64,000 bases of DNA from Meandrina meandrites (Eukaryota > Cnidaria > Anthozoa > Scleractinia > Meandrinidae): positions 23,574,493 through 23,638,492 of the forward strand of contig OY855908.1 of assembly GCA_963693305.1 (NCBI GenBank). The letters are read 5' to 3'. Every line of letters starts with the position of its first letter. Within the stretch, counting starts at the first letter, position 1. This document shows positions 6,757 to 61,183 of this stretch, piece after piece. The notes beneath the pieces were generated by a model that made no database searches, was not told the origin of the DNA, and was given only the letters and a program-made list of their open reading frames with translations. A program made the translations under genes and the position numbers.

Positions 6757-8479
6757 TCATTGTTTGTTGTATTGGGTCATCACACTTGCTTGCAGATAGT
6801 CAACTAAGGTGTGCTCTTGTTGATCATTGAATGAGGAGTTGAGAATAGAGAATACCCTTTCTGCTGCAGCCGAGGACGGCTGCACCAGCAGTGCTTTCTT
6901 CACTGCAGATGCCCAATGAGGGAGCTGATCCTTGTGGTTGTGCCACCATTCTACCTTTCGATCTTTTGTGTTGATAACCACATCTTCAGTGGCAGCTAAG
7001 TAAGCAGGGAGCTCAGCTTTTAGGCCACTGATAATTCCATCATCATTGAGAAAAGGGAAGATTCGCTGGACAAGTTGGACATTGAACTTTCGCAGAAACC
7101 ACTCTATGGCTGATTGGACACGTGCCTTTGCCTGCTGTTCGAGGGCTGCTACGTTTTGGGCAGGATTTTCTTCAGCGATTGCTGCCGCGACTGCATGCAT
7201 GTTAGGAAAGTGGGGGGCTTGGCAGGCTCGGGCAACAGCACTGAGTTTCTCATAACAGGAGAGCACGAGGAGGCCACCACCTTCCAAGAAATACGTCGCT
7301 TTCACAAGCTTGAGCTTCAGGTTGATTAGTCGCGCAGGATCAGAAAGTATTGCGTGAAGTTGAGGGAGTAACTGTGGACCAACTTCAGCGGCTTCTGCTT
7401 CTATCAAGAATCGCTCAATATCTCCAAACTGCATTAATATCTGTTGATAGCCTTCCCACTTTGACCACCATCTCGTCTCACTGTATGATCTTGGTCTTTG
7501 GCCAGTCAGATTCTTCCACAACAGCTTTGCCTTGTAGCTATGGCGGAACAGGCGAATCCATACGCTACCGAACTCTAGAAGAGTCAGAATGACAAGATGA
7601 TTCCCAACATTGTCAAGCGTATGTGAGAAACATACAACATTGAGCATTTTAGGAAATATAAAGGAAATCCTATCCAACGCTGCCTGGTTCACACTTGCAC
7701 CATCTCTCATGGCTGCGAGCAGCGAATTGGTCTCGACTCCATAATCAACTGATAGGCACTGATTAAGCACTTGTGCAAGTTCATCGGCATTTACTGATTT
7801 GGAACATGCATCAATTCTGACCAGACGTTGAATAATCGACCAATTATCGTCAATGAAATGCACGATCACAGCAATTGCTTCTCCTTGTCATTTAATTCCG
7901 TCAAAAATCATCGAAACATCTCTTGTCATGCCAGTCTGACCAGGCAAAGTCAATTCATTTTTTATTCTTTCGACTTCCTTGCTTGAAAACAATTGATATA
8001 TTCTGACCAAGATGAGCACTTGCTGTGAGACATTGGCCATTCTTCTCTAAGAGGGACCACAGCATGTCGATTTTCAAAATTGGGTTTCCAGCCCTCAGAA
8101 ACTCTTCAACCACTTCGAGTCGGTAGGCCTGTTCAGTTATTGGTAGAGTGCTGTCTTTCTGTCTGCTGTCCCCCGCTCTAAAAGCCTCCATAATCGTCTG
8201 ATCCTTCAGCTCAGACTTCTTCAGTTTGTCTTTACTATTTCCACGTTTCTTTGAAGCCAAGTGTGTAGTTAAAATACTCTTCTTTGTAGACACTATTTCG
8301 CAGCATGCCAGACAAAACAACTTCCCTTCTTTCATTGATAGTTGTTCTCCTGGAAATTGCTGAATCCGATCATGTATGCTTACGGTTTTTGCATCACAGT
8401 CTCCCCTAGTCTTATTTTGTCCACTGATTGATGGCAGTATGCTCTCGAGCAATCTCTGCCATGGCTCGCTGACTTCCAT
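6757..8479 (-). pseudogene. hAT-superfamily transposase, inactivated
   Basis: Two minus-strand frames form one transposase. The upstream frame (8479 to 7955) starts with Met and carries a BED-like zinc finger, LFCLACCEIVSTKKSILTTH. The downstream frame (7869 to 6757) has the hAT core: MRDGASVN with a catalytic-type Asp, the CFSHTLDNVGNH block, SETRWWSKW, and the C-terminal dimerisation segment containing PSSAAAERVFSILN near the end, as expected for the family. Inactivation is clear. A frameshift lies near 7990-7996, after which the protein continues in another frame, and an in-frame stop (TGA, minus) sits at 7888-7890. The product would be a nuclear cut-and-paste transposase. Eight-bp target duplications and terminal repeats, the usual hAT hallmarks, were not located. 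Confidence 0.85.
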
Positions 8480-8533
8480 TGTTCCTCGTGGATGATGACG
8501 CCATCTTGGAATGAGTGTTAGGTTTGAGAGAGA

Positions 8534-16459: not shown

Positions 16460-17605
16460 GCGATGAATAATATGTCAATGGCTGGGTACTGTGAAGTTTT
16501 AAGCCTTCCTGATTCGATATCCAAGTTGAGTATTGCCTTTTCCTAGAAATTCTCAGAAATTCCAAGCTTTCAAATTTGGCATAAATGTGCATGTCATAAA
16601 ATTATTGTGAATTCCTAGGGATTCCAAGCCTACAAATTTTTATTCCCAGAAGTTCCCAAGAATTCCAGTATCCTGTTTGCCATAATGCCTATAACGTTAT
16701 TTTGGACCTCTGGTGACATGTATTTGTCAGTCTTTTTCTACATCCAAGCTTTAAGTAATGAATCTTCTCTTCATTTTAATGCTGACAGCTGAAGGAGGTT
16801 AGAGTTTCTCTCATCATCATCACCTCTCAGCCAAAAACTGTTCGTTCAATAAAATTGTAAAAAAACAATGCCTATTTTCACGTTTTTGTTCGGCGTGCAA
16901 GGTAGATAACAATTCTCCAGCGCCCTTACTTGTCTTGGGTACAACAGAGAGACGCTGCATGGCTTAAATGTGACATTTAGACCTTTTGTGACCCTTCGTA
17001 CTGTGAATGAAGTCCTAGCAAAGTCCTCACAGTGTGAGGACTTTGCTAGGACTTGGTACACAGTAGACGAGATGATCAATATTATCCCAAGCAAGACTAG
17101 AACTGATAAACAGAGAGATGTTTTGGAGCAGGGAACTTTGTTGCAGGATGTTGCTGCGAACTTTTGAAGGCACAGTGCAGTATTTATCTCTTAAATGTTT
17201 GGAGTACGCAGTTTTATGGCCACAGTGGTTTAGGATTTAAATTAGTTCGATGTTGTTGGTAAGAGGTTTTTATGGCATTAGAAAGTAAAATGTGCTCTGG
17301 GGGCTTTTGTTTTCCACTGCTTGCAATAAATAATGTAACTTTTAAAACAAGCCTCATTTTCATCAAGAAGTGAATTTGGTGATACTTGGACAAAAAAAAT
17401 GCAAGAAAGCTACTCTTTTGCCTTTGCTTGTTTCATAACTTTTTGTAGTCCTTGTGCTTTAAGGGATTCCCTTGAGGCAAACGTTTAGAAGCATCTTTTT
17501 GATTAGTGGGTGTGGTGGGTGTTCTTTCCCTGGCATTTTGGGAGTGTGGTCAGTTGTTGTGTTCCACGATCGGGGAGTAACAGCTGTGAGCACAATGGCT
17601 AACTT
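16460..17605. other. Intergenic with GGAATTCC-type repeats and a perfect palindrome
   Basis: At 16545-16675 there are scattered GGAATTCC-like units as at 3.9 kb. The rest carries no recognisable gene. The palindrome at 17010-17054 is listed separately. Confidence 0.5.
17010..17054. repeat. 45 nt perfect inverted repeat (21 bp arms, 3 nt loop)
   Basis: Arms AAGTCCTAGCAAAGTCCTCAC and its exact complement are separated by AGT. The flanks extend the symmetry imperfectly (TACTGTG on both sides). No poly-T tract follows, so it is not a classic terminator. It could be the centre of a small foldback element. Confidence 0.85.
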
Positions 17606-18711
17606 AGCCTCCTGCGCAGACGTCTTAGGGCTCGTCGTGCGTTTCTCCCCCACGAACGTCTGCTCAACCGAGCTGCCACTTCCGTTCGCCGGCGGTTAGC
17701 CTTTGTTTTGAAGAAACCAATCAGCATCCGTCTATTGTGGAAATCAAAACCCGCAGCTCGCCCGCGGAGCAAATTCCGCGAAACGATACAGACGATTCAC
17801 GCCATAATGCTGGGTTAACAGGCCTACATTTCCTTTTTAAATGTCCAACTTGTTTCACGTTTTATTGTTATAAGGTGTTTGAAGTTGAATATAGTCATAA
17901 GACTGCAGCATAGCAAATGTATACAGGTCATTTGGTCTGCACGGTTTCCTGTTTGGAGTTTGACACCTCTGTATATTTGCTTCATGTTTTGCTTGCGCTC
18001 GGGTGGTTTGTTTACGCTCATTTCAATCTTCAAAATCTAAGCTACGAAAGGGCAAGGTCTAAAACTATTCGGTAAGATGTTGATTACTTGCATTTAATAT
18101 TTCTGACGCCGGGCCCGGCTGTTAGCGTCACTGTTCCGTCCGCACTTTTGTATTGAATCGCAGATGACATATTTATCATTGTCCGTCCTCGACAGACTTC
18201 TGTAGCTTTACTTCGAGAAAGTTATTTTAAGTTAACGGTTTCCTTTGTCCTGAAGGTCATGTTATTTTTCTGTCAATTTGGATGTTCAGGTTTTTACCTC
18301 ACTTGTGCGTTGTGTGATGTTCTGGTACCACATGATTCAAACCCGGGGATTCAAATGAATTAACCCGGCATGACGGTATGGTCGGTATGGCTTGGATGTA
18401 CAAAGAATGCCAAATCCTCTTGGCAAACCGTCAAACAGACCTATTTTCTTCAACACAAAAGAAATTACGGCTTCCCTTTGCAGTGCATTTAACTCCGTGA
18501 TGCAATATTTTCCGCACACCCGCTCCAAGACTCGCTTAGGTCCATCATGTTATCGCAGGATTAAAACGTGGGGTCAAAGTCCCACTTTCCAGAAATTGGA
18601 AGGTGAGCTATGATTGGCTAACCGCCGGCGAACAGAAGTGGCAGCTCGGTTGAGCAGACGTTCCTGGGGGAGAAACGCGTGACGAGCCCTAAGACGTCTG
18701 CGCAGGAGGCT
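17606..18711. mobile_element. 1.1 kb TIR element with 11 bp target duplication, carrying a helicase-like scrap
   Basis: Both ends read AGCCTCCTGCGCAGACGTC in inverted orientation. The inverted similarity runs about 100 bp to GCGAACGG/CCGGCGGTTAGCC. The 11 bp ATGGCTAACTT occurs immediately outside each end (17595-17605 and 18712-18722). Inside, on the minus strand at 18337-18528, is a short frame with LNALQREAVISFV and then GLPRGFGI, which looks like the start of a RecQ-type superfamily 2 helicase with a ruined Walker A loop (normally G-L-P-T-G-x-G-K-S). A Mutator-like origin would fit the 9-11 bp target duplication, but no transposase is present. Confidence 0.8.
18337..18528 (-). pseudogene. 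RecQ-type helicase N-terminal motif fragment
   Basis: Minus strand, about 60 codons. ELNALQREAVISF corresponds to the Q-motif/motif 0 region and the following GLPRGFGI to the Walker A loop, with Thr changed to Arg and Gly-Lys-Ser lost. No later helicase motifs (DEAH box, motif VI) are present. It lies wholly inside the 17606-18711 element and so appears to be cargo of that element. Active relatives would unwind DNA; this copy cannot. Confidence 0.5.
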
Positions 18712-18884
18712 ATGGCTAACTTGGCCAGAAGGAAAAAATCCTTATGCCCTCTGCTTCTTCCGTTCCCATCTGGTTACTCAGCTAAGTCTAAATTGTTATT
18801 AAAGAGCTTCTTGTGATTACATCGTGTGCTATCAGTTGCTTTGAAATCTCATGTGACTTCGTAGTGCGTATGATGACGAGGCAG

Positions 18885-19082
18885 AATCAAAAATTAAATG
18901 AGACTTACCTTAAGTCGATGTTTGATTGGGATTCTGCCGAGTCATCAGTAGCACAAGAAGTCACGCCCATACCCTGTAGAGGTATCAATACCCACCCACA
19001 CGTGACTTCTTGTGCTACTGATGACTCGGCAGAATCCCAATCAAACATCGACTTAAGGTAAGTCTCGTTTAATTTTCGATTA
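18885..19082. repeat. Near-perfect palindrome, 81 bp arms and 35 nt spacer
   Basis: The left arm (18885-18965) and right arm (19001-19081) are inverse copies with about two mismatches. Each arm carries, facing outward, the sequence CTTAAGGTAAGTCTC, a strong splice-donor consensus, so both strands have the same potential exon end. The inner spacer holds a nested ATACC...GGTAT inverted pair. Open frames cross it on both strands only because of the symmetry. Confidence 0.88.
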
Positions 19083-19668
19083 TACAATCTTTTACCCTTA
19101 AGCAGGTAAGTATCACTGCAAATACACCTGCCATAATTTTTGGCAGTTAACAATATTAAACATTTCTTTTTGGTAAAATAAAAACGAAACAATAATAAAA
19201 TTATTATTCATTTTGTAAACAATTCCATAAAGCAGAACACCAGGTGCAAGAAGTCATGAAACAATAATGAATAATAAGTAACAAATGCCAATTATTTTAA
19301 TTCCAGAGTATTAAAATGTTGCTGAAATCAAACAAACACAACCAGCCATTATTTCAGCAGCAAAGGACATCTTAATTCATGGAAGTAGTAAAAAAAATAA
19401 CAGTTGACATAAAGTGGTTTCCCACACCTTTTAGCAGCACATTAATTTTGTTGTTCACTTTTACCCATACTACAATTTACTATTTCCCTTTTTTATGATG
19501 TAATGTTAAAAAAGGTCAATGAATGGGAAACAACGAAAAAAAAAACGGTAAAGGAAAAATTAAAACCCAACATTCATTCACAGCTAATGCTATTGAAAGC
19601 AAACGGAAAAGGCTAAACCCACTGGTTCCCTGTTAGTCATACCAAAATTGACATTAGCATGCTTTCAG
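19083..19668. other. AT-rich spacer upstream of the RAG1-like pseudogene
   Basis: No ORF, no repeats noted beyond A/T runs. It may contain an intron of the downstream gene, ending at the CTTTCAG acceptor at 19662-19668. Confidence 0.4.
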
Positions 19669-22335
19669 GTTGCAGAGCTTAAAGCCCACATCCCCATGGA
19701 GATGTTAAGAATGATAAAAAGAACCTTCAAGGATGCACTTGGTAAGTATAGAACACAGTAAAACCTTAAACAAATACTACATGTACAGTACATGTGTATT
19801 CATTGACTGGGAGGGACAATATATGTGGCTAATTATAGTACAAGTTATTGATTGCAAATTTATAACAGCACATGTGCACAGTGATAAAGAGCCATATATG
19901 TACTGACCTGATCATTGTAATAATTTCTAGTGTTGAATTTGTTACAATGTCATCAATCACTTTTTCATAATTTCTGATAATTCAATTTTACTGGATTTTT
20001 TTGTTCTTGTAGGTTATGACATCTTTGGCCCTGAAAAGGAGATTCGCAATCACTTGAAGTCACTTGAGTTTGAGTACGAGTGTGAAGAATTTGTGACCAG
20101 TTCTGAAAAGAAGGTCTCATTTATCAGAGTCTCAAACTTTAGAGATGTCTTAACACAAACAGTTGAAGAACTGAAGCAGAGTAGAAACCTTACAAGTCAC
20201 AGCAACATTCCGGAGAATGTACTTTGGACTCTTTTCACTGGCGACAAGGGTGGGAAATCTACGCAACTGCTTCTACAAATACTTAACTGTAAAGAACAGC
20301 ACTCTGTTCATTGTGCACGCCTATTGGCTATCTTTGAGTGTGACAAAGACAGCTACGAGTGCCTGGAGAAAGTTTCAAACCTATTATTGATGAAGCCATT
20401 CAAGTGTTGTCTGACCTTCCTGCTCTAAACATTCATGTTCAACTTCCCAAAAGCAACAGGAAACCCCAGAATCAAACTGACATTACTGAAAACATCAATG
20501 TTAAAGGGACTGAGAATTGGCCAAGGATGAACCCTGGAAATGTGCACTTCAGTGAGAATTGTTTCTTATGTAAGAAACAAGTAAGTTTGGCAGTAAAGAT
20601 TCCAAAGAATGAAAGGGAAACAATTGAAATTGACCATACTTACAGCAAAATTAAAGAAACATCCACCACTGGACCCGCACCTACATCTGAAGCGACTGAT
20701 GTTTGCCTGTCACAGTGTTGGATAAGCCTAGGTGGGGACTGGGAGTTCCTTGCAAGATTTCTGGGCTTGACAGGACCAAATGGAACATGTTTCTGCAACT
20801 TTTGTCATGTACAATTAAAGGATGTCCCAAGAGGCAAACCTCACACGCCATCGCCTTTGCCAAAGTACAGCCAAAGCTGTGAGCAGTTTACTGTGCGTAC
20901 ATTTGAGTCCATCTCTTCAGATAACAGAAGATTTGTTGATGCTGGAGCAAACAAGGCTAAAGTGAACAAATTTCACAACTGTGAGTTGCCACCAATCTTT
21001 AAAACAGCAGGCCCAGTTATTGATTCAGTGTCGTGCATGCCACTGGACTTGTCTCTTGGTCTTGGAAAACAAGCCTTAGAACTTGTTGAAAAAGAAGCCA
21101 TCTTTCTTGACAATGCTATCTAAGAGAAAAATGGAAAAGCTAGTCAGAAATTGACAACTGAGTTAGAAACAAGGGCAGCATTGGAAGAAGAATGTTCTGA
21201 AGTCAAGAAAGAGTTGGATGTCCTAAAGAATGCTGCTTCTTGTTCCCAGGAAAAACTAAATGATTTTCTGCAGAAATCAGAAGCCTATCTCCAAAAGGAA
21301 GGGAGAAGGTACACCTCATGATGTGTTTATTATCAGTGTTCCAGATAAGAAAGGGTCTTAGGCAAAGCCCCACAAAGCTATTGTGTAGTTCTATACATGT
21401 ATGGTAACTATAAATGATTATGAGAGACCCACACCCATCAACCCCTTGCAAGTCCTTGTTGACTTTCTTGTGTGAAAAATATTGTGAACAATGTACCCTA
21501 CAAACAATCAAGTATACAAAATGAACACCACCAATAATTATTATCATCGAACAATTCCATAATATTTCTTGTCTAAATTGTCTGTTAGTTTAACTGTAGA
21601 ACTTATTCCTTACAGAGAAAGAGAAGAAAGAATGCACAAAAATGACAAATCAACAATATATAATAATACAATGAATCTAATAATTAAAACTTTATCAGAC
21701 AAATCTTTATTGTGTCAATATATTGGCAAACCCAATTTGATCAGTGCATGGATGAAATGAATTTGAAAAGGCAGGTGTACCACAAAGACGCATTAGTGGG
21801 AAGTAATGTGGATAAAATAATGCAGACTGGCAACATCAAAAAGATTGTTCAAGTTTTCAAACCTGTGAAAATTCAACTACAAGACGGTTGTTGGCAGATC
21901 TTCAGTTCCAGCAAAATAATGAACAAATTTTCAACATTGCTAACAAAGCTATCCCTTTGCTACCAACTCTACTCGAGAAGTGTCCCTCTATGTTGACATG
22001 AAGTTTGCTTTCTTGCTATTAGATGTGCAAGCTTTGGCTGTTGGTTTCCTGTGAACTTCCCTGACTGCAGCCTGCTCAGAAAATTCCACGTTCTAACACA
22101 CCATGTCCCAGAAAAGGCAAGGAAAAGGGGTACAGTGGGCATGGAAGCAGAGCACTGCTCTGAAAGCATTCACCCAGTGGTCAACAAACTGGACAGGATG
22201 TATGCTACCAATCAAAATGTGTGTAATCGCTTGGCACTGGTGTCAAAGAGCCAGTGGCTTCAGAGCAACTCTACTTTGAGAAATTTTAGGAAGCCTGTAC
22301 AAAGGAAAGCATGTAACATCCCTGTAGAAGAATAG
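19669..22335 (+). pseudogene. RAG1-core-like DDE transposase, multi-exon and decayed
   Basis: Exon 19669-19741 (acceptor CTTTCAG, donor GTAAGT) splices in frame to an exon starting at 20013 after CTTGTAG. The protein then shows FTGDKGGK (first Asp, codon 20243) and GGDWEFL (second Asp, codon 20737). A Cys-x2-Cys pair lies at +19 and +22 residues from that Asp. Later come FHVLTHHVPE (His at 22087 and 22102, five residues apart) and a Glu (codon 22162) 20 residues after the second His. Mouse RAG1 has D600, D708, C727/C730, H937/H942 and E962 with the same D708-to-Cys, His-to-His and His-to-Glu spacings. A coiled-coil-like, Lys/Glu-rich insert spans 21124-21308. Damage: a frameshift near 20365, a TAA at 21121-21123, and further shifts between 21700 and 22050. 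No RAG2-like kelch gene and no recombination-signal-like ends were found. It could belong to a cnidarian multi-copy transposase family related to RAG1/Transib rather than to RAG itself. Confidence 0.72.
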
Positions 22336-23345
22336 GCTTTTTCCATTGGTGATAGATCATTGCTACGCTTATCAGTTGAGTATGCAACAAGGGAAGTTTT
22401 ACTGTAAAGCTTTGCTGTTATCAGGGGCAATGGAGCTAGTTTCAATTGAATGGTACATATATAACTTTCAACACTCAAAATCTGATACAAAAACAACAAT
22501 ATTATTGTTGGTAAAGCTGGACACTATACACTGCTATTATTACTATTAGATACATAGTACCATGCAGCTAACAATTATGAATGTCTGGTCATTGTACCTT
22601 TTGATGGCTACGTGAACTGAGTTTGTTGACATACATTACTATTGTAATGATCTGTCAGATCCTTTACCAAACAGGTTTGGATGTTAGCCAAGAAGAGAGG
22701 GTACCTGTAAAACATGAAAAATAAATTATCTATAACTTGGGGTTCCTTCCACACATGGTGCAATTCATTGTGTACAGTTACATTGCAAGTTTACCTTGTG
22801 AGGTGATGCAAGTTGAGAAATCAACAAAATGCCAATTGTAGCATAAAATGTCTTGAGTTTATTAGTTTGTAAATTTGTAGCTATTGTACATAGTTAATAA
22901 TTGGGGGATGTTTTTACTTGCAACATACTCTTGTAGCATACGACAAACATTGATGATAAATTTATTTCAGAGTCATGTCTCTGCATCAAAAATGAATGTC
23001 TACTATGTTGCCATTTGATCAGATTATGCAATTTAAAAAGAAACAATTGTATGCCAGTGATTGTAAATAGTTGGGCTTATTATATTTAAATCACAAAATG
23101 GGGAGTGTTCACTGGTACTGTATACATGTATGAACAAACAAAATGTTTAATGCAGTGTATATTTGAAGTAATGCACTGTTTTAATATTTAAAAGTACATT
23201 ATTGCTGAAACCTAATGTAGAACCATGAATTATGCAAAAGTATCTGGTAATTCTCAATTTTATGAAAAATATGGAATAGAATGGAATAAAAATTTATTTT
23301 TACATAGCTTGAAGTTTGGCCCTTACATGTAGTGGAATTGCCACT
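22336..23345. other. AT-rich intergenic, nothing identified
   Basis: No coding feature or inverted repeat recognised. It may contain the 3' untranslated part of the element holding the RAG1-like gene. Confidence 0.45.
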
Positions 23346-23802
23346 ACAGTCCGACCTCTATTAAGGTGGCTTGACTGGGTTTTTTAGGGGCAACACCGCT
23401 CAAGTTTGAGAACTAACCAGACTGTCATTAACAATGCCATCGAAAAAGGATCACCACAGCTGAATTAGGTAAAGATGAAAATTTGTTATGACCAGTGTTA
23501 TTTTGACATCGGAGTTGTCATAGCAACGTAATGACGTCATCACGTTTATCAATTTCGTTCGTATTGCTCGGCACCAGGAGATTTTTTCGGAAATCGCTCA
23601 AGGGAGCATGTACCTCCTATACCTGCCTCAGTGTTGGCAAAGTTTGAACAAATTCTGTGAGAGCGTTATCGAAATTTTTGGGGATGAAGTTTCGAGGGTT
23701 ATAAATACAGCAAAAAATATACTATTGAGATAATAGGGTAATATCTGAAGAAAACCACGCGCTTTGGGGATGCAGTTTCATCTCATAGTAGTTTGATGCC
23801 AT

Positions 23803-24111
23803 TTAAAATTGTGTATACAAAATTATGGGGATCGCGACGACCGATTGCGAAAAAAACGGATTTGATGAGCGTGCATTCAGGTGCTCTTGTTGCCACTTTT
23901 GTAAATAATTTGGTCTACACCTACAAATGTGATAATTATTTGGAAACCGCTCGATGAATTTTTTTAAAAACTTGTCAATCTCGAGGTTTGTCATCAGTTT
24001 ATATGTCCTGCAAGTTTCAAGGTCATTGAAAACATTTAAGACAATAAAATCGGGGCTCCAATGTACTACTTTTCTCTCGCAGATTTTGTGTTTACAAGTG
24101 AGTGTCCTCAT
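23803..24111 (-). CDS. 102-codon ORF in the left arm of the TTAA foldback
   Basis: The frame starts MRTLTCKHKI and ends ILYTQF. Its twin in the right arm is open over the same 102 codons. The sequence is Cys- and Lys-bearing (CKHK, CRCRPNYL), which hints at nothing definite. The frame may be kept open only because the arms exchange sequence or are young. It might alternatively be an untranslated terminal repeat with chance openness. No family recognised. Confidence 0.3.
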   Translation of the reverse strand: MRTLTCKHKICERKVVHWSPDFIVLNVFNDLETCRTYKLMTNLEIDKFLKKFIERFPNNYHICRCRPNYLQKWQQEHLNARSSNPFFSQSVVAIPIILYTQF

Positions 24112-24360
24112 TATTCACGTGTATTGTTTTTTACTTTCATGTCCACGTGCACAACTCAGCAAAAAATTCATTTGCATTAAACAGAACGCTCAATTGCTTT
24201 CTAAAAATGTTGGGGAAACATGCTTATATAACTTGAAAACTGTATTTTTGTGTAGAACAACAGATCAGGAAAAAGGTCTAAACTCACTGATAAAATACAA
24301 ATGAATTTTTTGCTGAGTTGTGCACGTGAAAATGAAAGTTGAATACAATGCCCGTGAATA

Positions 24361-24669
24361 ATGAGGACACTCACTTGTAAACACAAAATCTGGGAGAAAA
24401 AAGTAGTACATTGGAGCCCTGATTTTATTGCCTTGCGTGTTTTCAATGACCTTGAAACTTGCAGGCCATATAAACTGGTGACAAACCTCGAGATTGACAA
24501 GTTTTTAAAAAAATTCATCGAGCGGTTTCCAAATAATTATCACATTTGTAGGTGTAGACCAAATTATTTACAAAAGTGGCAACAAGAGCACCTGAATGCA
24601 CCCTCATCAAATCCGTTTTTTTCGCAATCGGTCGTCGCGATCCCCATGATTTTGTATACACAATTTTAA
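24361..24669 (+). CDS. 102-codon ORF in the right arm of the TTAA foldback
   Basis: Inverted twin of the frame at 23803-24111, with 8 substitutions over 102 residues and no stop or frameshift. Like its twin it contains LEIDKFLKKFIERFPNN and CRCRPNYLQKWQQ. Function unknown. The survival of two open twins in a decayed neighbourhood is the only hint that it may be, or may recently have been, coding. Confidence 0.3.
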   Translation: MRTLTCKHKIWEKKVVHWSPDFIALRVFNDLETCRPYKLVTNLEIDKFLKKFIERFPNNYHICRCRPNYLQKWQQEHLNAPSSNPFFSQSVVAIPMILYTQF

Positions 24670-25705
24670 ATGGCATCAAACTACTATGAGATGAAACTGC
24701 ATTCCCAAAGCGCGTCGTGTTCTTCAGATATTACCCTATTATCTCAATAGTATGTTTTTTACTGTATTTATGACCCTCGAAACTTCATCCCCAAAACTTT
24801 CGATAACGCTCTCACAGAATTTGTTCAAACTTTGCCAATATTGAGGCAGGTATAGGAGGTACATGCTCCCTTGAGCGATTTCCGAAAAAATCTCCTGGTG
24901 CCGAGCAATACGAACGAAATTGATAAACGTGATGACGTCATTACGTTGCTATGACAACTCCGATGTCAAAATAACACTGGTCATAACAAATTTTCATCTT
25001 TACCTAATTCAGCTGTGGTGATCGTTTTTCGATGGCATTGTTAATGACAGTCTGGTTAGTTCTCAAACTTGAGCGGTATTGCCCCTAAAAAACCCAGTCG
25101 AGCCACCTTAAGCGGCCACCCTCCATTAAGCGGCCACTTTCTAAAGTCCCAATTTCTTTGTCAGTAAACTGCTGTATTTGATACCTGTATTAAACGATAC
25201 CTCTACTCAATGACCACCTCCATTAAGCGGCCACGGCCACCTTTTTGCTGTCGCAAGTGTATTATTTATATGGTTTTTTACCTCCATTAAGAGGCCAGCA
25301 AATTATCTTTCCAAGCGAAATGGTGACAGATGATAAAAGGTGATAACTGATAACAACAAGGAACAAGAACTGCAGGCCTAAGAAACTTGTCAACGATGTT
25401 TCGCATATGTTTCTGTACATTATCAACCCGGAGAAATACTGCACATTTCAACTACGTGCCCTCTGTGTTAGAGCTAGAACTATGCATGGGCTGCAAATGC
25501 ACTTGATACTTTGTTATAATGAATTTTGGATTTGTCTTAAAATATTTTCACGTTTTAAAAGCATTTTGCTATACAGAGTCAATAGAATCATGATTACTGC
25601 CATTCCTATCCAATTTATGTTGTACCTTTATTAAGCAGCCAACCTCTATTAAGCGGCCACTTGAGAAAGTCCTGAGGGTGGCCGCTCAATAGAGGTCGAA
25701 CTGTA

Positions 25706-26416
25706 ACTGGTTTGGTACCTTGTTTGCATTTAACAAATTATTCTCTTAGAAATTGGCTTTCACATGTAGGGAATGATTATTTTTGATAGCCAATACAAAA
25801 CACTGCTAGCTATATAGATATGGAAAAATTTACAGACATGCAAATGTGTATGAGAATAATTACATTGGAGGCTTTATAGTAAACCTTCGTCTGGGAATAA
25901 AATTGCTTATTATTGCACAAATAATCTTAACAAGTAGCACAATTCCCAGTTAAGTAATACTCCCTTGAGCATGGAGAGTAACTTGCATTTACCTATGTTT
26001 TTCATTCCTTATTGCTTACAGCATGACGCACCTTAGTGCAGCCACCCAAAAAGCTTTTTTACAAGTTTAATAGCCAACCAGAGGGAGAGAATTTCTTTGA
26101 CCAGTAACACTGTCTCCTTTTGATGTTAAAAACACGACAAAGAAACTGTTGATCACATTTGTAAACTAAGTTGGTGCATTTACAGAATGATATAGAGCTA
26201 ACTAACTTGTGAAAAAAAGTTTGTTGGGTAGCTTCACTAGAACGTCAAGCTGTAAAGATTGCCATTAAAAAATTGCACCATTTTCTCAACAAATCAGAGA
26301 TAAAACCAGAGTTTTGTATGAGTTATGAATGGTCGAATAGCTTGCAAGGGGCCGATCATTTTGGGAGTAGTTTGCAAAACAAGATAGTCACAGTTACAGC
26401 TGTGTTGATCAGTTGT
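25706..26416. other. Intergenic, nothing identified
   Basis: AT-rich DNA; no convincing frame or repeat. Confidence 0.45.
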
Positions 26417-26689
26417 TTACAAATTTATTTTCATGTACAAATTTATTTTCTTTTTTTTGGTTAATTTCTTAAGCCTTTCTCTTTCCAGCCTCTCTTTCAA
26501 TTCATCTCTTCTCACCTCCTCTGCCTCTCGCTGTCTTTTTTCTTCTGGGGTTCTGAAATGTATTAATTTGTAAGACCAAAAATTTGTCAAGTGTTTCCTT
26601 TTTAAATGATGAAACCAAATCAAGAAAAAATGAACTGGCGAGAACAAGTTACCTTTTTTCCTCCTCGTCCCCTTCTGGAAACACAACTC
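26417..26689 (-). CDS. Two predicted terminal exons of a charged coiled-coil protein
   Basis: On the minus strand a 37 bp exon (26689-26653) is bounded by CCTACAG and GTAACT. A final exon (26552 to about 26417) follows CATTTCAG. Joined, they stay in frame and read as an acidic piece FPEGDEEEKR followed by a highly charged helix containing EEKRQREAEEVRRDELKER and ERLKKLTKKKK before a stop, with AATAAA close by. The pattern is of a coiled-coil or RNA/cytoskeleton-associated protein tail, but I do not recognise the family. Upstream exons were not found within the following 2 kb. Splice sites are by eye. Confidence 0.4.
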   Translation of the reverse strand, partial: ELCFQKGTRRKKGNLFSPVHFFLIWFHHLKRKHLTNFWSYKLIHFRTPEEKRQREAEEVRRDELKERLERERLKKLTKKKKINLYMKINL

Positions 26690-26899
26690 CTGTAGGTTTT
26701 AAAAATTTTCTCGGGCGTCGAACAACTGAACTTCTTCAAACATAGAAAAACGAATATATGTAGCTAGCTGCTGAAGCCAATTGCCTTGAAAATAACATTT
26801 ATTTAACGTAAAACAAAACAAAAACCGACAATTAAATACACTACCTTTGTTTCGGCATTCCGCAAGAAACAAATCAAGTCGTAACCATTGAACCATAAA

Positions 26900-28870
26900 A
26901 TTGAAACGCAGGCGGCAAAATTCCCGCGCTTTTTTAGAACGCGACCAGCCGACATAGCATCAAGTAAAGAGCGGAAAATCTGTGGTCAAGAAAATGTCTG
27001 ACCAAAGAGAACACTTGATTGAAATATTCGGAATTGACAGCACGAGAATCTATTGATCAATTTAACTTATAGTGAAGTTCGACACATTTAATGACATTAA
27101 AGTCAGTGTAGTGAACAATCTAGCCCCGACACCATCCTGTCAAGAATTTCATACCGCAAATCGAGTACCATGACCAGCTTCGAGTTAACCGTTCAATACT
27201 CGTAGGTCCGTTGTTAAATAATCATCCTAATATTTCATCAATGAAACAAATGAACTACACAAAAAAAACAAAAACTGACCTGAGGCAACTGTCAAAGTTC
27301 TCCGCTAGGTTGGTGGAAAGCGCCAACAATCAGTACCGCCTTATCTAGTTTGTTAAACAAAACTGCAACGCGGTAAAACCTCGAAATCGTCTTGTAGATA
27401 CTGAGAAAAAATTCCACTCCCATACAATCGAGACGGGTGCAAACTGAAACCAGGTATGTAATCTTCGTTTGAGTGTAATGCTCAATGGACAGCATTCCTT
27501 CATGAGCGGATCTGGGCAAATGACAAACGGGTATCGTTCTGTTGGATCTGTTCTGTCACCTTTCAATAAATCCACGTCTGAGCCACTTCACTGGTGAATA
27601 AGGTCCAATATAAACATTTTTACTCGACAAACGCATTCTGTTGAAAACAATAAGAATTTAACGTAAAAGTGGACTGAGGCAAGCAACCCTATAAATTTTG
27701 ATCGATCGCAAACGACACGTGGACAAAGACGGTCGGGCGCGAAGTTATGCTTCTGGCAAAACTGCTAACTATTAAAGTTTTCAATAAAATAGGTTTAAAA
27801 AAAAACTTACCATTATATCGGCCTGTTTCCGACGATGACTTTTATAGCATATTCTCCACACAAACTGTCGAATCTTATAAAAGAAAACTAGAAAAAACAA
27901 TGGGCACGTAACCACAGAACAAAAAACTTCGCTCTCATCCGCTCTCACGGAATGCAAAACACAATTACGACCAGCGAACTCGTCTCAAAATCTACCGCTG
28001 CAAAGATATAGCGCGGGCTTCAAGTGGATCTGGGGGCCCAAGAATGAAACGCTTGTGACTGTTTTTGGGTACAAATGCAAAGCCTACTGTGCGGGTTTGC
28101 CACTTTACAAAAAGAACATGGGCTGGAGAAAAATGCAAAGGCCCCCTGAGGGAGTTTGATGAGGCCATTGCCAGGTTCATGGCTGGGAATTTAAATTGTT
28201 GCACCTGCACTTGGCATTGGACAAGAGCTTAGGCAAACAATTACTGCACATGTCCATGATTGGAACACTGTAATAAGCCATTTACAAGAAAACTTCCAAG
28301 GAGGTTTTACCACTTATTTGACAGGTTTGGGGCTAACGTCCCTAATTAATGGCCTGGAACATCCTGGTGCAATAGATGCGTATGATCGCAGACAGTGTAT
28401 TCTCAGTTGAGCCCAACTACGCTCATCCAGAACAAGTACTGTAAATAAATAACGGAAATAAATCAATGGGTAAATAAAAAACATAGGCACACAATGCGTG
28501 CCAGAGTTGTTTTCAGGTAGTGAAAGAGAATTAGTGCATACTTGTGGGTATTAATTCTCAGCTAATGCGTTTGTCTGGTTACAATCTTTAAGCTAAATTG
28601 ATCATGTGAAAAAATGTTAGAAGTAACTACAGCAATCAGACACAAATCCAAACTGCTGGCAGGACAGGGAAAGGGTAAGGTGATCAGGCCATTCTCGACC
28701 ATCGACTTTTGTTTACTGGTTTGTTTTTTTATGTTTTCCTCATCTTGAGCACCGAGGCTTTTAGGAACTGCAAGTTTGTGCGCATAAAACACTTATTCAC
28801 ACAGTTCATTCTTAGTTCCTGAAAGGTTAACGTCTCTTTGGCGAAGATACTCTTTTTGTTCAACGACCGT
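26900..28870. other. Intergenic, no gene recognised
   Basis: Several 60-76 codon frames occur at 27292-27575, 27992-28210 and 28562-28792. None has a recognisable motif. The GC content rises around 27990-28390, which could mark a relic exon, but no splice pair fits clearly. Confidence 0.4.
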
Positions 28871-29215: not shown

Positions 29216-32200
29216 TTACATAAAAAAAAAAAAAATAAAAATAAATAAATAAATAAAAAATAAAAAATAAAACGCGGAAACCGAGAAATGGTCTCGTTTT
29301 TCTTTTCTTTTTTTTTTTCCTGTTTGTAAGGGAAGGATTCGTTTCCATTTTGAGAAGTGTTTTTGTAGTTGGTTACGATCTCTTGCTATAAGGTGTTCCA
29401 TCTCATAAACAGTTTTAATCTTGGCAAGAAAGACTTTAAAGGATGGTTGGTTTCTATGTAACTTGCATCTATAAATAAATTGTTTCGCTAGCAAGACTAA
29501 ATGATTCAATAAGTGAAAGTCTTTAGAAATATCAAAAAATCCGAAAAGAATGTGAACGACCGTAAAATGAACTTCTTCAAAGTTATGAACGTTTAGCCAA
29601 GAAAAGAACGTATTCCAAAAAGTTCTCGTTACCTTACACAGGCAAAATAAATGCTCGAGGGATTCAACTTCTTCTTTGCAAAAGGCACAGAGCGCAGAAT
29701 CTATCATTTTAAATCTAAAGAGTTTGTCATTTGTAAATACAATATTGTTCAGTATTTTATATTGGAATTCTCTTGATTTTGTGTCCAGAGCAACATTAAA
29801 AGCTAGAGTATATATTTGTTTCCAGTCCGTTGACAACTCAGGGTATTTACTGATCAACTTCTCCTGGGCTGAGGGAGGGGTTTGTTTTTTAATTTTGAAA
29901 CTTTTATATATCATTTTGGATGTTATTTTCAATAAATTAACGTTAGTGCCGTCTATATTAAGTTCAATAAAGTCGTTCAGGGGAGTAGGGCGTTGCCCAT
30001 GATTTTGCTTTAAGATTGCTCTCCAGTCACTAGGAATAGCATTAAAAATACCCATCAATTTAAAGTAGTCCACTGGTTAAAGCCTTGTTCCCTGAAATCT
30101 GCTATTGTCCAGGAATGTACCTCTGTTGGATAATAAGTTGCCTATTTTAACAAACCCTTGATTTACCAGATGTTGTGAAAAAACAGAGGCTTTTTCTACA
30201 AGGATGTTCTTATTGTTCCAGATAATCTGGTTAGCTACTTCGTCATAGGATTTCACTGTACTTGGGTTTAAATCCATCCAAGCTTCAAGGCATTCTTTAT
30301 AGAATTCGGGGAGATATATTGGGAGGTTTCGAGTGTCAAAATTACAATGCAAAAGAAACTTTCCACCTACTTGCCTTAGATAAACATCGAGGATGGACTT
30401 CCAAGTGCTATTATAGTCTTCCATGTACTTTTTTAAACTTATTATACGCTGAGCAGAGATCATAGATTGAATGTCTAACATTTTTAGACCCCCGTCATCT
30501 ATGTCATTTATAAGGGCTGACCTTTTCACTTTATCTTTACCTTTCCAAATAAATCCATACAAAAGCTTGTTGATTTCTGAAATAAGGTCTTGACTTACAG
30601 GAATTAAGGTCGCCTTATACATAAATTTTGGTATGGCGAATGTTTTAACAATTTGGATTCTACCCAGTAACGTAAGGCCCCTCCATTTCCACATGTTCAG
30701 TGTTTTTTGGATGGACTTCAGGATCATATCGAAATTTGCTTTCTTCCTGGCTGATTTGTTATAATTGAAATACACCCCCAAGATCTTAATCGATTTCTGT
30801 ATTTTATGAGAGAAATCCTTTTGAGACAGTTGCTGTAAGCCGATCGCAAAGACTTCAGTTTTTTCATTGTTTACATGGAGACCAGAATGCTCTGAAAAAA
30901 GTTTAAGAGCGACAAAAAGCTGTGAATAAGATTGCTTGTCCTTTAAGAAACAAGTCATATCATCTGCAAACACAGTTAACTTTATCTCTTCACCATTGAT
31001 ACTTAAACCTTGAATGTTATTATTTTGACGAATATAACAAGAAAGAATTTCAAGGGCTAAAATGAAAAGTAGAGGTGAGAGAGGGTCACCCTGCCTTACC
31101 CCACGACTCACTTGGAAAAGGTCAGTTGTAAAACCATTGTTTAAAACACAGCTTGATATATTTGTGTAGAAGGTTTTAATCCACTGGATCACATACGGTC
31201 CGAAATTGTATTTCTGTAATACTTTAAACAGATAAGTATGGTTTAAAGAGTCAAAGGCTTTCTCGAAATCAATTGTTACTAAAATGCCAGATTTATTAGT
31301 GATTTTTGCATATTCCAGGACATCATCAATTGTTCTAACAGCGTCAAAAATAGATCTACCCCGTATAAACGCATTTTGATTGTGGTGTATAAGGTCCGGT
31401 AAAAAGGGCTCCACTCTTTTGGCTATAACTTTAGATGCAATTTTCACGTCCACGTTTATCAACGATATTGGGCGCCAATTTTTAATGAGTCTTCCGTCTT
31501 TATCTTTCTTTTCTAGCAAGGTAATTAAAGCCTGTTTTTGGGAGTTAGATAGCTCCCCATAATAGTGAGCAAAGTTTAGGCAATTAACTAGTGGTTTTGC
31601 TAAGATGGGCCAAAATTCGAGATAAAACTCCACCGTCAAACCATCGTTCCCTGGGGATTTATTTTTTTGGAAAGTTTTAAGAATCATAAAACATTCACTT
31701 ATAGTTAATTCTTTTTCTAATGCATCTCTTTGCTCGTTAGTTAGCTTTTTAGTGTTAATATTTTGAAGGAAGAGGTCCATTGAATGATCATCAGTTTTGC
31801 AAGCACCTCCATTATAAAGATCTTCATAAAAGGTCTTAAGTTCATTCATTATTTTCCTAGGGTCTGACGTACAATTATCATCATCTGTGTATAATTTCCT
31901 TACACATTTTTTCTTTCTGGAGTTTTCTAAATTTAAAAAATACTTGTTACTTTTCTCACCGTATTCATACCAATTTGCCCTAGACCGTATAATTGTTCCT
32001 TTTGTTATGTATTCATAATGACGATCATACTCTGTCTGCAAAATTTCTAATTCATTGAGATTCTCATCGGATGGATTTGAGTCGCACAAGGACTGGCAGG
32101 ATTTAAGCCTCTTTTCTAAATCATGCAAATACGCTCTTCTTTCTCTGGCTTTTCTTTTGCTGTATGAAATCGTTTCCTGCCGAATTTTGTATTTTATAAA

Positions 32201-33178
32201 ATCCCATAAAACTCTCGGATCTTGTATTTCTTTACTTTCCTCCTCCCATTCAGCGTATTTACTGTTTATTAATTTGATATATTCTTCATGGTCGAGCAGG
32301 CTTGCATTAAACTTCCAAAAGGATGGGCCGTGCGTTTGACTTTGAATCCCATTAATTGACAAAATGATTGCTGAATGATCCGACTTGATTGCTGGAATAA
32401 TGTCTACACTATCAATGTCCTCTTGTAAATTACTCCCTATCAACCAAAAGTCTAAACGAGGTTGAATAAGAGGGGTTTTCTGCCTCCAGGAAAAACGCTT
32501 TGCTATCGGGTTTCTTATCCTCCAAATATCAACAAGATCAAATGAAAAACATACATTTTCAATCTTTTTGACCGAATCTTTTAATTTAGGTTTGCCTCCT
32601 ACCCCATCCAATGCGGGGTCAAGAATCACATTAAAATCCCCGCCCATAATGATATTACAATCACTGTCAATGTCAAGTTCATCGAGTTCGTTTTGAATTG
32701 TTTCAAAAAAAGAGGACTGTTCGTTTGTTATGTTTGGTGCGTATATGTTTACAAAAATAAAAGGGTGACCCTGCACCGTAGCTACTAACAGTATGAAGCG
32801 TCCGTTTTCGTCCGATTTAACCGCAGTTAGTTTGAAATCTAGGGACTCTTTAACAAGTATGAGAACACCTTTACTATGCTCCGAGCCATGAGCAAAAAAT
32901 AACTCTCCACGCCACTGGGTTCTCCACGTATTTTCAATTCCTGGGGTACTATAAGTTTCTTGAAGGAAAATTATATCTGACTGGTCCTTTTTTAACCACT
33001 GGAATAGCGTCTTGCGTTTTTCAAAAGTTCTAATCCCTCGAACATTTAACGAAAGAAGTTTAAAATTTGCATTTATTTTCTCGAATTTGGAAAATAAAAA
33101 AACACTTCTATCCCACTGGGAAAATGATGGTGATTGAGCGGAACGATGTAGACATTTACCGGTTTCTGCGAAAAACAA
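29216..33178 (-). pseudogene. LINE ORF2: endonuclease and reverse transcriptase, one nonsense codon
   Basis: The first segment (33178-30077) is 1033 codons. The N-terminal third is an apurinic-type endonuclease (LLSLNVRGIRTF, IIFLQETYS, GGDFNV, SDHSAI). It is followed by a reverse transcriptase with CLNFAHYYGE, VTIDFEKAFDSLNH, RGVRQGDPLSPLLF and the catalytic FADD near residue 737. A TAA at 30077-30079 interrupts the frame, which continues in register (30073-29216) with a Cys-rich region CAFCKEEVESLEHLFC typical of LINE ORF2 tails. In the truncated copy near 15880 the same codon is TCG (Ser), so the stop is a recent change. Residues after about 29290 are read from the tail and are probably not coding. 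The product would nick the target and copy the RNA in the nucleus. Confidence 0.92.
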
Positions 33179-33519
33179 TATACATAATAAACACGTCGAC
33201 TAATGAAGTAGTACCAAACGCACATCATTTGCAAAAACAAAAGAAAAGAAACAAAAAGAAATGATTATATACTACACTCCCGAAAAATAAAAGGTAGTTA
33301 GTAAATAACATACTTGTAACTACAGCGGAGTTGCGCCTAGCTCTGGTGTTTACGATCTACGATCTACGATTTCAAAGCAATGCTCTCTCTCTCTAAGAAC
33401 AAATATATATAGATCGGGATTTTAAAATAGTTGCAAAAATTCAGGCAAAAATATTATAGTAGGTGGTAATGACAGTTTGCCGTCGAGAAATAGGCAAGAG
33501 TCTAGCATATTTAACAAAG

Positions 33520-34458
33520 TTAATTAAACAGTTCACCTTCAATATAAAACTTGTGCGGTTCCGCCCGGCTGAAAAAAGCAGTCTTTCCTTCCTCCCTGGC
33601 CTTTATTAGTTCTGGAATAAGCTTCTTTCTGATATCCACCACATTTTTAGGTAAATCTGGACCCATCCCAAGACCCTCGCTTTCTGCTAACATTTTGCGG
33701 CGGGACATAACCTCTTCGCGGTCGGGATAACGAAGAAAACATGCTATGATTGTACGTGGGGCTCCCGAAGCTTGTGGCTTGCCGATCCTGTGGACTCTTT
33801 GGAATTCGATTGAACGAGCTGAAGACATTTGCAGATGTATTTGAAAAAACTTGTACAGGACTTCTTTACAATTTTCGGAGTCTCCTTCCTCGGGTATTCC
33901 GTAGAAACGAAGATTCTCGCGTCGCTGGTATACGTCTTGGTAGATTGTTTGGTCGGTTAATTTCCTGTTTTCCGCTTTCAAGCTCTTGATCTCGGCTTTG
34001 TAGTTTGTGCTGTGCTTGTCAAAGTTCTTCTTCATTCCTTCAATCTGCTCATGAGCGAGGCTTAGACTGCTTTCTACATTATTTATCGTGTCTCTCATTG
34101 TTTTCATTTCTTCATCGATACGTGTGACTTCTTGCGTTACGTTGCCCAAAGATGTTTGCATGCCCTCGACCGTTTTAATCATCTTATCCAAATGTGATTC
34201 GATACGGTCAAATCTAGAGGAGTAGTCTTCTTCCAGCTTGGAGAGCGTCTTTAGTATGGCGTCTAACTTAATATTGATTTCCTCTGTCATATTTGAAGCA
34301 AGTGAGCTGTCGACAATACCTTCGGGTTCCTCGTGGTTTGGTGAGAAAACGTCAATTTCCTTCGGTTTCTTCGCAATAGGTGAAGAAGACTGACTTTCGT
34401 CGCTATCACTACTTTTTGCTCTGGTTTTTCTTTTTGTGATATTTAAAGTTTCATTCAT
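33520..34458 (-). CDS. LINE ORF1 RNA-binding protein
   Basis: 312 codons, open from Met to stop. The N-terminus is basic and Ser-rich (KRKTRAKSSDSDESQSSS). A long coiled coil follows at about residues 60-170 (LDAILKTLSKLEEDYSSRF and onward). Next is an RRM-like block starting RRENLRFYGIPE, then a C-terminal domain with PRTIIACFLRYPDRE and IEGELFN. This is the domain order of L1-type ORF1p, which trimerises and coats the element RNA. It lies upstream of ORF2 on the same strand with a ~340 bp gap. The truncated LINE copy at 16.4 kb starts within its last codons. Confidence 0.88.
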   Translation of the reverse strand: MNETLNITKRKTRAKSSDSDESQSSSPIAKKPKEIDVFSPNHEEPEGIVDSSLASNMTEEINIKLDAILKTLSKLEEDYSSRFDRIESHLDKMIKTVEGMQTSLGNVTQEVTRIDEEMKTMRDTINNVESSLSLAHEQIEGMKKNFDKHSTNYKAEIKSLKAENRKLTDQTIYQDVYQRRENLRFYGIPEEGDSENCKEVLYKFFQIHLQMSSARSIEFQRVHRIGKPQASGAPRTIIACFLRYPDREEVMSRRKMLAESEGLGMGPDLPKNVVDIRKKLIPELIKAREEGKTAFFSRAEPHKFYIEGELFN

Positions 34459-34538
34459 CCCGAATCAAAAAACAGCATTTCCGAACGAGAGCAAACGTTC
34501 GTGCGTCTAGCTTGCATCCATGCTCGACCCAGACTCCA

Positions 34539-56474: not shown

Positions 56475-58171
56475 TCACCGTTCTTCAACATAGTATCGGG
56501 GACGTTCACGCTGTCGAGCAGGATAGCGCCTTTCCACTGCAGGTGGTGGTTGTGGATCTGAGATATCTATGTCTTCGTCAGATTCACTTGAACGCTCCGC
56601 CAAGCCTTGATCACACGATCCATGGTAAGGTTTGAAATATGAGATGTGTCGAGTCCGTTGCAGACCTGATCTCTCCGCGGTAACTTGGGTGCCTTTGACC
56701 GAGATCACTTGATAGGGATTTGGCTCATATCGTGTGGAGACCTTGTCGCGCTTTGCTTGTTGCATTAACACGATGTCACCGACTGCAATGGTGGGTTCTT
56801 TTACGCGACGTCTGCGATCTGCATACTCCTTCATTTTCGTCTTGTGTTGGTGATCAAAGCTGGCTGCTGTGCGATGTTGCTCTGACGAACCACTATTAGG
56901 ATGCTTCACAGTTGGTATTCCATTGCTAAGTTGCCTGTTGAACAGCAGTTCAGCTGGAGAGACACCTGTGGTCCAGTGTGGAGTACATCGGTAATTGAGC
57001 AGGAACTGATAAAGCCCGTGCCGCCAGTCACATCCTTCTACGAACGGCTTTACACAAGGGTTTCATGAACGATTCGGCCAATCCGTTTGCTTGAGGCCAA
57101 AGTGGAGTTACTTTGTGGTGTGCTATACCTTTGAGCTGTATATACTCTTTGAATTCGTGGCTGTGAAATGGGGGTCCATTGTCTGAAGTAATCTTTTCCA
57201 GGTATACCATGAGTGGCGAAGATTTTTTCCATGCATAGAATGACTGATTGGGTTGTGGTGCTTTTCATTATCTTCACTTCTGGGAATCTGGAGTACTCGT
57301 CGATCATCACAAATAGCATTTCTCCCGTAGGAAACGGTCCACAGAAATCAACGCGTAGCGATTTCCAGGGATGCGTAGGCAGAGTTGTCATTTGTACCAG
57401 GGTCGAGGGCATGGCGGGTCCAGTAGCTTGACAGGCTAGACAACTGTTAATAAGTTGTTCTGCGTCGTTATCAATACCCGGCCATCATACTTTGGATCGG
57501 AGTAACTGCTTGGTTTTGACGATGCCTTGGTGGCCTTGATGTGCCAATTTGAGCGTTTTTGGACGTAATGCCTGCGCAATGATGATCCGATTGCCACGCA
57601 GTAGCACGTTATTGGCAGTGATGTTTAGCTCTTGGCGTAAATGGTGGAACCGTTGCAACTCAGCGGGCCAAGTGCTGGTCTGTGAAGTTTTGATGTCTGC
57701 CTGTAGCTGTTGGTCAGCCTGGGTTGCCGACTGGATTTCCTGATAGGTCATGGACTTCCTGATAGGTCATGGGATGCGCAGCAATGAAATTGAGGTACTC
57801 ATCTGCAACATTCACCTTTTGTCGTTTTGTTGGTAGAGGCATCCGGGATAGTACATCAGCGGGGTTCCTGTCCCCTTTGCGATATTTCACAGTAAAGTCA
57901 TATTGTTGGAGTCGTAGCGCCCAACACTCAATGCGTGCAGGTGGCTTGGATGTTGGGGAAAAGATGACTTCGAGTGCTTTGTGATCTGTCAATATGTCGA
58001 ATTTTGTTCCAATGAGATACATGGTGAAATGTTCGCATCCCCAGACTACGGCGAGTGCCTCTTTTTCAGTGCGAGAATACTTCTGCTCCACCTCTGTGAG
58101 AGAACTGCTAGCGTATGCAACATGTCGTGTTGTGCCATCCTGGTCAATATTGGAGAGAATGGCACCTAGGC
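56475..58171 (-). pseudogene. Gypsy 1 RNase H, integrase and C-terminal domain
   Basis: Minus strand. EQKYSRTEKEALAVVWGCEH and ILTDHKALEVIF are RNase H. After YRKGDRNPADVLSR the frame is broken by a 19 bp tandem duplication at about 57737-57773. The integrase zinc region (KLAHQGHQGIVKTKQLLRS, then INSCLACQA) follows, with a TGA where Trp is expected near 57486. The catalytic core has RVDFCGPFP, then after a frameshift near 57195 SDNGPPFH and ANGLAESFMK, giving the D, D, E triad. The tail (56909-56475) has VGDIVLMQQAKRDKV and a Pro/Arg-rich end. It would have integrated element DNA into the host genome. Confidence 0.88.
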
Positions 58172-58177
58172 CATATG

Positions 58178-59986: not shown

Positions 59987-59992
59987 CATATG

Positions 59993-61110
59993 GGCTGGCA
60001 TCAACAGTAAGGGACGGTTTTCTTTTGAGGGTCATAATAAGCCATGAGGCAGTCTGCCATGATTGCTTGTTTTACTTGATCAAACGCTGGCTGTTGCGTT
60101 GGTGTCCAGACGTACTTGACACCTGTCTTTGTAAGCTCTCTTAACGGTGCTGTAATTGCAGAGAAATTGGGAATGAATCAAGCACAGTAATTCGTGAGTC
60201 CCAGGAAACTTCGCAATTGTGTTACATCTTGCGGAACGTGTGTGTTTTGTATCGCGGCAATCTTCTTCCGATCTGCTTGCAAACCATCTTTTGTCAACAT
60301 GTAGCCATAGAACCACAGGGATTCTTGTTTGAATAAACACTTGCCCGGGTTGACAGTTAAACCTTTTGTACTGAGAAGAGCAAAAAGAGCATTAAGGCGC
60401 TCACCATGTTCCTCATCAGTGGATCCCCACACAATTATGTCATCAGCAATGTTGCGAGTGCCGTCAAGTCCCTGAAGCACGTTTTGAATGATGTTCTGAA
60501 AGACTTCACTTGCGGCATTGATCCCGAACGGAAGGCGTTTGTAACGAAATAAACCACGATGTGTAATGAAAGTGGTGATGGAGCGAGATTCTTGGTCTAA
60601 GAGAATCTGATGATAGCCAGCTTTGAGGTCAACTTTGCTGAACTTAACTGCTCCAGACATATCCTGAAGAAGCTCATCTACCGTTGGGATTGGATGGTGT
60701 TCGCGTTTGATCGCTTTGTTGGCTTGGCGATAGTCACCACACACACAAACTTCAGAGGGGTTGTGTTTTGGAGCCACTACCAGTCCACTTACCCAATCAG
60801 TGGACTCATCTTGAACAGGTTCAATGATATCTTTGGTTACGTAATCGTCGAGCCAAACATCTAATTGCTTGCGTAAATGAAAAGGGGTTCTCCTGCATGT
60901 CTGAGAGACTGGAGGTACTGTTGGATCCGGTCCATCCAGTGGCTGTCAACAAGTCTGGGGCATTGGATGTAACAGATACCGTATTTAATTTTAGCTGCAA
61001 GATTCCTAGTTCCATTGAGGTTTCATAACTCAGTAAAGAGCCTGTAGGTTGATCTGTAACGTAGAAGGTAGCCAGAGTGACTTTCTGTGCAGATTCAGCG
61101 CTTTTTTCCA
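59993..61110 (-). pseudogene. Gypsy 1 protease end and reverse transcriptase
   Basis: Minus strand. A protease-like tail (TLATFYVTDQPTGSLLSYET) lies at about 61080-60960. The RT follows with WVSGLVVAPKHN, VCGDYRQANKAIKREHHPIP, FSKVDLKAGYHQI, LPFGINAASEVFQN and IADDIIVWG, where the active-site Asp pair is intact. After GLTNYCA a stop (60178-60180) interrupts, then FIPNFSAITAPLRELTKTG continues in frame to the junction with the 58178-59986 insertion. The segment upstream of the protease is not Gypsy-like and seems to be foreign. Confidence 0.88.
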
Positions 61111-61183
61111 ATCGAAAGGCGGCGTAAAGAATTTTTTCAAAAAGAAAAACAACAACAACTTGTAGAAACATTACCTTAACAAA

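Follow-up and report, generated by a model that had tools for sequence, protein, structure and literature searches.

A decayed, low-copy transposase gene of probable Chapaev (DUF1280) lineage with a predicted RAG1-like core plan in the coral Meandrina meandrites

We analysed a 64,000-nucleotide stretch of Meandrina meandrites contig OY855908.1 (the window), in which sequence reading and tblastn revealed, at 19669-22335 on the forward strand, a broken, intron-containing gene that we relate below to the Chapaev transposases. The structure of the gene could be resolved in two blocks (19669-21318 and 21739-22335). Exon 1 (19669-19741), upstream of the domain with the first catalytic Asp, lies within a tblastn match to protein P0015 (19597-19743) and is bordered by gctttcag up to 19668 and gtaagt from 19742; the sequence reads on as a GT-AG intron (19742-20012). 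Exon 2 (20013-20373) encodes the half of the RNase H domain that bears the first Asp (DUF1280), with the Asp codon at 20243 and a match to Pfam PF06918 on 20015-20425, and codon reading showed that the frame is lost toward its 3′ part. The coding sequence continues in another frame (20374-21120), which holds the second Asp (20737) and two Cys codons (20794 and 20803). This continuation was aligned by tblastn with protein P0001 (307 of 319 residues identical, 96%, over 20374-21318), relative to which a frameshift is located near 20371-20374. The next piece (21121-21318), delimited by tblastn and codon reading, starts with an in-frame TAA (21121-21123) and then enters a charged coiled insert, of which it covers the first half. 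The charged coil of the window copy occupies 21124-21318, between the Cys and His pairs, and long helices were predicted for its counterparts in structure models of proteins P0021 and P0024. From the sequence, a second intron probably starts at a splice donor near 21309. The P0021 alignment (tblastn, 53% over 21739-22305) then defines a single frame over 21739-22332, broken only by a TGA at 21994-21996: a piece linking the coil to the C-terminal domain (21739-21993, LKRQVYHKDALVG...) precedes this stop, and the C-terminal domain follows it (21994-22335), ending with a TAG at 22333-22335. The decay of the gene, already called by a first-pass annotation together with the coiled insert, is real, as seen from the frameshift, the TAA and the TGA, and the window copy is capable of none of the transposase functions proposed below. 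The P0015 tblastn recognised no upstream exon in the upstream region of the window, and an Rfam scan of the window gave nothing at gathering threshold.

Codons of the putative catalytic residues were read directly: Asp 20243, Asp 20737, Cys 20794 and 20803, His 22087, 22099 and 22102, and Glu 22162. Counted from the second Asp, the two Cys stand at +19 and +22; His 22102 is five residues after His 22087, and the Glu is 20 residues after His 22102, which confirmed the RAG1-like spacings noted previously. A protein search with a read-through query returned 32 hits, 30 of them with a precomputed PF06918 assignment. The best match was P0001 (95% identity over 63% of the query), and the one named match, from Desmophyllum pertusum (54%, with 53% of the query covered), fits the cnidarian origin that had been guessed from the letters alone. 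All hits (32/32) preserved the second Asp together with its +19 and +22 Cys, and because of this conservation the spacing cannot be attributed to chance. The five full-length relatives (P0021, P0023, P0024, P0026 and P0027) all share both Asp, both Cys, the first His and the Glu, while the second His is present in four and replaced by Asp in P0024. The family displays a D-D-E triad in which C(2)C and H(3-4)H stand between the second D and the E, the arrangement given as the Chapaev motif in the accessible text of Kojima 2025. Two more protein searches added nothing to the already known P0021 and P0023. Phage records contained no match to the gene family, and none of 83 pattern matches in viral contigs was confirmed.

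The best profile for the first-Asp exon was DUF1280 (PF06918; E 1.9e-14, 54.3 bits for a cut-off of 25), whereas the last window piece reached the RAG1 profile PF12940 with E 0.013 and 14 bits, below the cut-off of 25. According to the portions available of the respective papers, DUF1280 corresponds to the Chapaev transposases, which form one clade with RAG1 (Majorek et al. 2014, PMC3985635), and the Transib superfamily comprises Transib, TransibSU, Chapaev and Chapaev3, with a Chapa zinc finger and, in two Chapaev subgroups, a RING (Kapitonov & Koonin 2015, PMC4411706). A tree legend in the latter names Nematostella and Hydra, and the DUF1280 counts given in the accessible part of the paper on the Hydra viridissima genome (PMC7642931) are above zero in six of seven cnidarian columns. 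A PF06918 scan of the M. meandrites genome gave six matches, four of which fall at other loci (L026 to L029). A profile built from the window family found all four (best value per locus 3.2e-9 to 7.9e-6) and matched none of four control stretches; it also hit an unrelated open reading frame (ORF) of the window (33523-34464, 4.8e-4), probably through coiled-coil similarity. RING matches were detected upstream in L026, L027 and L029, the three of the four loci covered by the upstream scan, and the RAG1 N-terminal profile PF12560 matched L026 over cut-off (6.9e-8) and L027 under it (1.5e-4). We propose, with a probability of roughly four in five, that the window gene is what remains, dead and at low copy number, of a gene for a cut-and-paste transposase of Chapaev (DUF1280) lineage with the core domain plan of RAG1 and Transib. 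The first-pass annotation had tentatively placed it on a little-described branch near the origin of V(D)J recombination; it is more likely one decayed member of a lineage already named and set beside Transib and RAG1 in these papers.

Copy numbers, which are lower bounds, were estimated in the assembly that contains the window (551 Mb, 56 contigs). DNA search detected one further partial copy on contig C1 at 36.70 Mb (88%), and protein search one more place at 43.30 Mb on the same contig. Window positions 19492-20692 are 86-88% identical, in two pieces, to the 36.70-Mb copy, which likewise contains stops, and 21366-28042 align in five pieces, at 90-95% identity, with C1 at about 43.29-43.30 Mb; all three places of the gene are broken or partial. 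A near-perfect 1.75-kb palindrome of the window (23361-25111; 818-nt arms, 96%, 115 nt between them) is missing from the C1 copy and has TTAA on both flanks, and we read it as a foldback insertion. Just upstream of the gene lie a small foldback with 81-nt arms (18885-19081; 98%) and an inverted repeat of 97 nt (17605-18712; 96%).

Chapaev elements are bounded by terminal inverted repeats with a short, 4-bp target duplication, and Transib elements by CAC-type ends with a 5-bp GC-rich one. No element ends could be defined around the window gene (9 candidate pairs against 5 in the reversed control), and CAC-type ends with a 5-bp GC-rich duplication were not found there. Other observations also weigh against our assignment. 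The C1 43.3-Mb copy runs on for about 5.7 kb beyond the 3′ end of the gene, and this duplicated block looks like a segmental duplication rather than a transposition. The Chapaev name rests on the papers cited above, not on comparison with a Chapaev reference sequence. Because the DUF1280 profile served to select the four other loci, their match to the family profile is in part circular, even though exons beyond DUF1280 also match. Finally, the C-terminal block taken alone matches mouse RAG1 (20/87 identical) at least as well as Chapaev-type loci (17/91, 18/88 and 18/89). Few copies, an intron, the lack of detected ends and the extended duplicated block would all suit a host gene domesticated long ago from such a transposase, duplicated with its surroundings and decayed here, as would the F-box matches of three of the five full-length relatives described below. 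We consider this origin improbable, though the strongest competitor: the invariance of both Asp and the Glu in 5/5 relatives is what selection for cutting would produce, and none of the three genomic places is both unbroken and complete.

Kinship of the window family with RAG1, the enzyme that rearranges antibody genes, and with Transib is supported by predicted structures and by a C-terminal profile block. Fold comparisons were made on models of two full-length relatives, not on the broken window gene. A RAG1-type core was predicted in two full-length relatives, with RAG1 as the best fold match; the P0024 model (387-1078) superposes on RAG1 459-1007 (6xnz), and identity to RAG1/Transib in these fold alignments is low, about 10-16%. 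The P element was the only other DDE family in the fold lists, where absence of further families excludes nothing. To our knowledge there is no solved Chapaev structure, and therefore RAG1 as top fold cannot separate RAG1-like (RAG1L)/Transib proteins from Chapaev. In sequence searches of the PDB, the C-terminal profile A3 gave weak matches to RAG1/RAG1L in seven of eight hits (E 0.15-1.1), the second-ranked hit being an unrelated decorin-binding protein, and His, His and Glu were in register in both RAG alignments shown. For scale, a single-sequence mouse RAG1 query reached HzTransib at 0.0099 in the same library. A Pfam scan of seven C-terminal rows listed RAG1 once, among five weak families with one row each. 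The full-length profile A2 returned 23 PDB hits, F-box chains first, with no RAG1 up to E 10, and aligned to mouse RAG1 by hhalign with probabilities of 0.7-0.9%, the catalytic segments (D-C-C and H-H-E) being in register in two of three alignments and the third being spurious. In a phmmer search with mouse RAG1 against 2,701 ORFs from 12 stretches, a small set for which the E-values hold, a RAG1L locus on contig C14 ranked first (5.7e-10) and the window piece next (8.4e-5). The sequence link is weak, but it points one way.

Taken with the fold match and the A3 hits, this ranking could be read as placing the gene, in line with the first-pass proposal, among true RAG1L/Transib members close to the V(D)J ancestor. 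This is very unlikely: the window piece missed the RAG1 profile (14 bits against 25), DUF1280 matched far better, and in the same ORF comparison mouse RAG1 was absent from the hits of the family profile at E<=1. A genome scan with PF12940 gave two stretches over cut-off, both on C14 and neither in the window, and on these scores we rejected RAG1L membership. The C14 locus (12173615-12174632, minus strand, within L018) is a separate decayed RAG1L with stops; mouse RAG1 tblastn on the surrounding 19.7-kb stretch gave a combined Expect of 3e-26, and the window family profile did not match it. The lineage call of the first pass is supported as kinship, through predicted fold and C-terminal block, but not as narrow membership: another DDE group, Chapaev, fits clearly better, which is the outcome that the first pass itself had named as refuting its reading. 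A chance spacing in an unrelated gene was rejected and is negligible: low fold-alignment identity, profile-profile probabilities under 1% and the lack of RAG1 among the A2 hits would allow it, but not the 32/32 conservation, the whole-core fold match of two models and the register with mouse RAG1 in two of three alignments.

F-boxes are adaptors of SCF ubiquitin ligases. A Pfam F-box-like domain matched near the N-terminus of P0021 (1.3e-11) and P0023 (3.9e-8), both over cut-off, and of P0024 just below it (3.1e-5; 24.1 bits against 24.3), the domain being precomputed for P0024, which also has a FAM60A match; the Pfam scan gave none in P0026 and P0027. The count is therefore 3/5 full-length relatives and 3/9 of all proteins scanned, and A2 also found FBXW7 chains among PDB sequences (2.4e-4). 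The 1,070-residue P0023 derives from contigs no longer than 3,957 bases, which would leave little room for a splicing artefact. No F-box was found in the window copy, which lacks a recognisable upstream exon, so the domain is inferred for the relatives only. An F-box where RAG1 and some Chapaevs have a RING is possibly a new architecture: our literature search, which mostly did not reach subscription papers, retrieved no paper on an F-box with Chapaev or RAG1-like proteins. Another kind of F-box/transposase-domain fusion is in print, namely F-box genes that captured a Tc1/Mariner helix-turn-helix (PMC12062965, 2025); a term search of its accessible text met no DUF1280, Chapaev or RAG1.

Ends of the Transib type were seen at a related locus. 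The RING-bearing, Chapaev-type L026, on contig C8, has CACGGCTGTTTC ends at 466 and 8100 and is flanked by a 5-bp GC-rich target duplication, GGCGC; shifted by one base (465/8101), it can alternatively be read with a 3-bp duplication, GCG. The end scan gave three rows, this repeat twice, one base apart, and a pair at 1235/7483, with none in the reversed control. An inner block, GTGGAAAYTTAGTTCGC, begins after 15 bases at the left end and 25 at the right. The scan found no ends at L029 (control 0) or at L027 (run without control). A right-end-like stretch at 9484 of L029 has no partner, and the end asymmetry therefore rests on one element, where it may reflect a chance indel. We tentatively suggest that a Chapaev subfamily, of which the window gene is a decayed copy, swapped the RING, the ubiquitin-ligase module of RAG1 and of the RING-bearing Chapaevs, for an F-box, and that the 15/25 ends of the single element L026, one helical turn apart, recall the 12/23 rule; this extension is doubtful. 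If true, a link to ubiquitin ligation was gained more than once among RAG1-type recombinases, and why RAG1 has a ubiquitin ligase becomes testable.

By analogy with RAG1 and Transib, the intact protein would have acted by binding short inverted ends, cleaving at these ends through a D-D-E metal-ion centre and producing a short target duplication on insertion. The coil that separates the Cys pair from the His pair would probably serve dimer or partner contacts, and the N-terminus of the F-box relatives would probably recruit an SCF ubiquitin ligase. Elsewhere in the window, labelled by reading alone, lie a LINE-like element (long interspersed nuclear element; 29219-34464, minus strand) with a long reverse-transcriptase-like ORF and a coiled ORF, and hAT-like transposase and Gypsy-like pol pieces (6760-8533 and 56478-63999, both minus strand). 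Arrays of a 43-bp tandem unit (58269-58525 and 59631-59916; 6.2 and 6.7 copies) lie between Gypsy-like pieces.

Compared with known systems, the window family has counterparts of RAG1 D600, D708, C727/C730, H937/H942 and E962, and the predicted domain plan of P0024 resembles the RAG1 core and the RAG1L BbRAGL. In contrast to these, its Cys and His pairs are separated by a long coil, the window gene falls under the RAG1 profile cut-off, and a separate RAG1L sits on C14 of the same genome; the accessible text of Martin et al. 2020 (PMC7204232) reports paired RAG1L and RAG2L from two corals and one jellyfish. The models match HzTransib less well than RAG1, partly since HzTransib is shorter, and the available portion of Kapitonov & Koonin 2015 (PMC4411706) describes canonical Transib as consisting of the core alone. 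The family differs from described Chapaevs in that neither Chapa zinc finger nor RING was found with the window gene, an F-box match appearing instead in 3/5 full-length relatives. It resembles them in its DUF1280 match well above cut-off, in its D-D-E with Cys2/His2 and in the DUF1280 loci of the same genome that its profile recognises. The core plan shared by Chapaev and RAG1 is now backed by predicted structure, beyond motif, and Chapaev is therefore usable as an outgroup for the assembly of the RAG recombinase.
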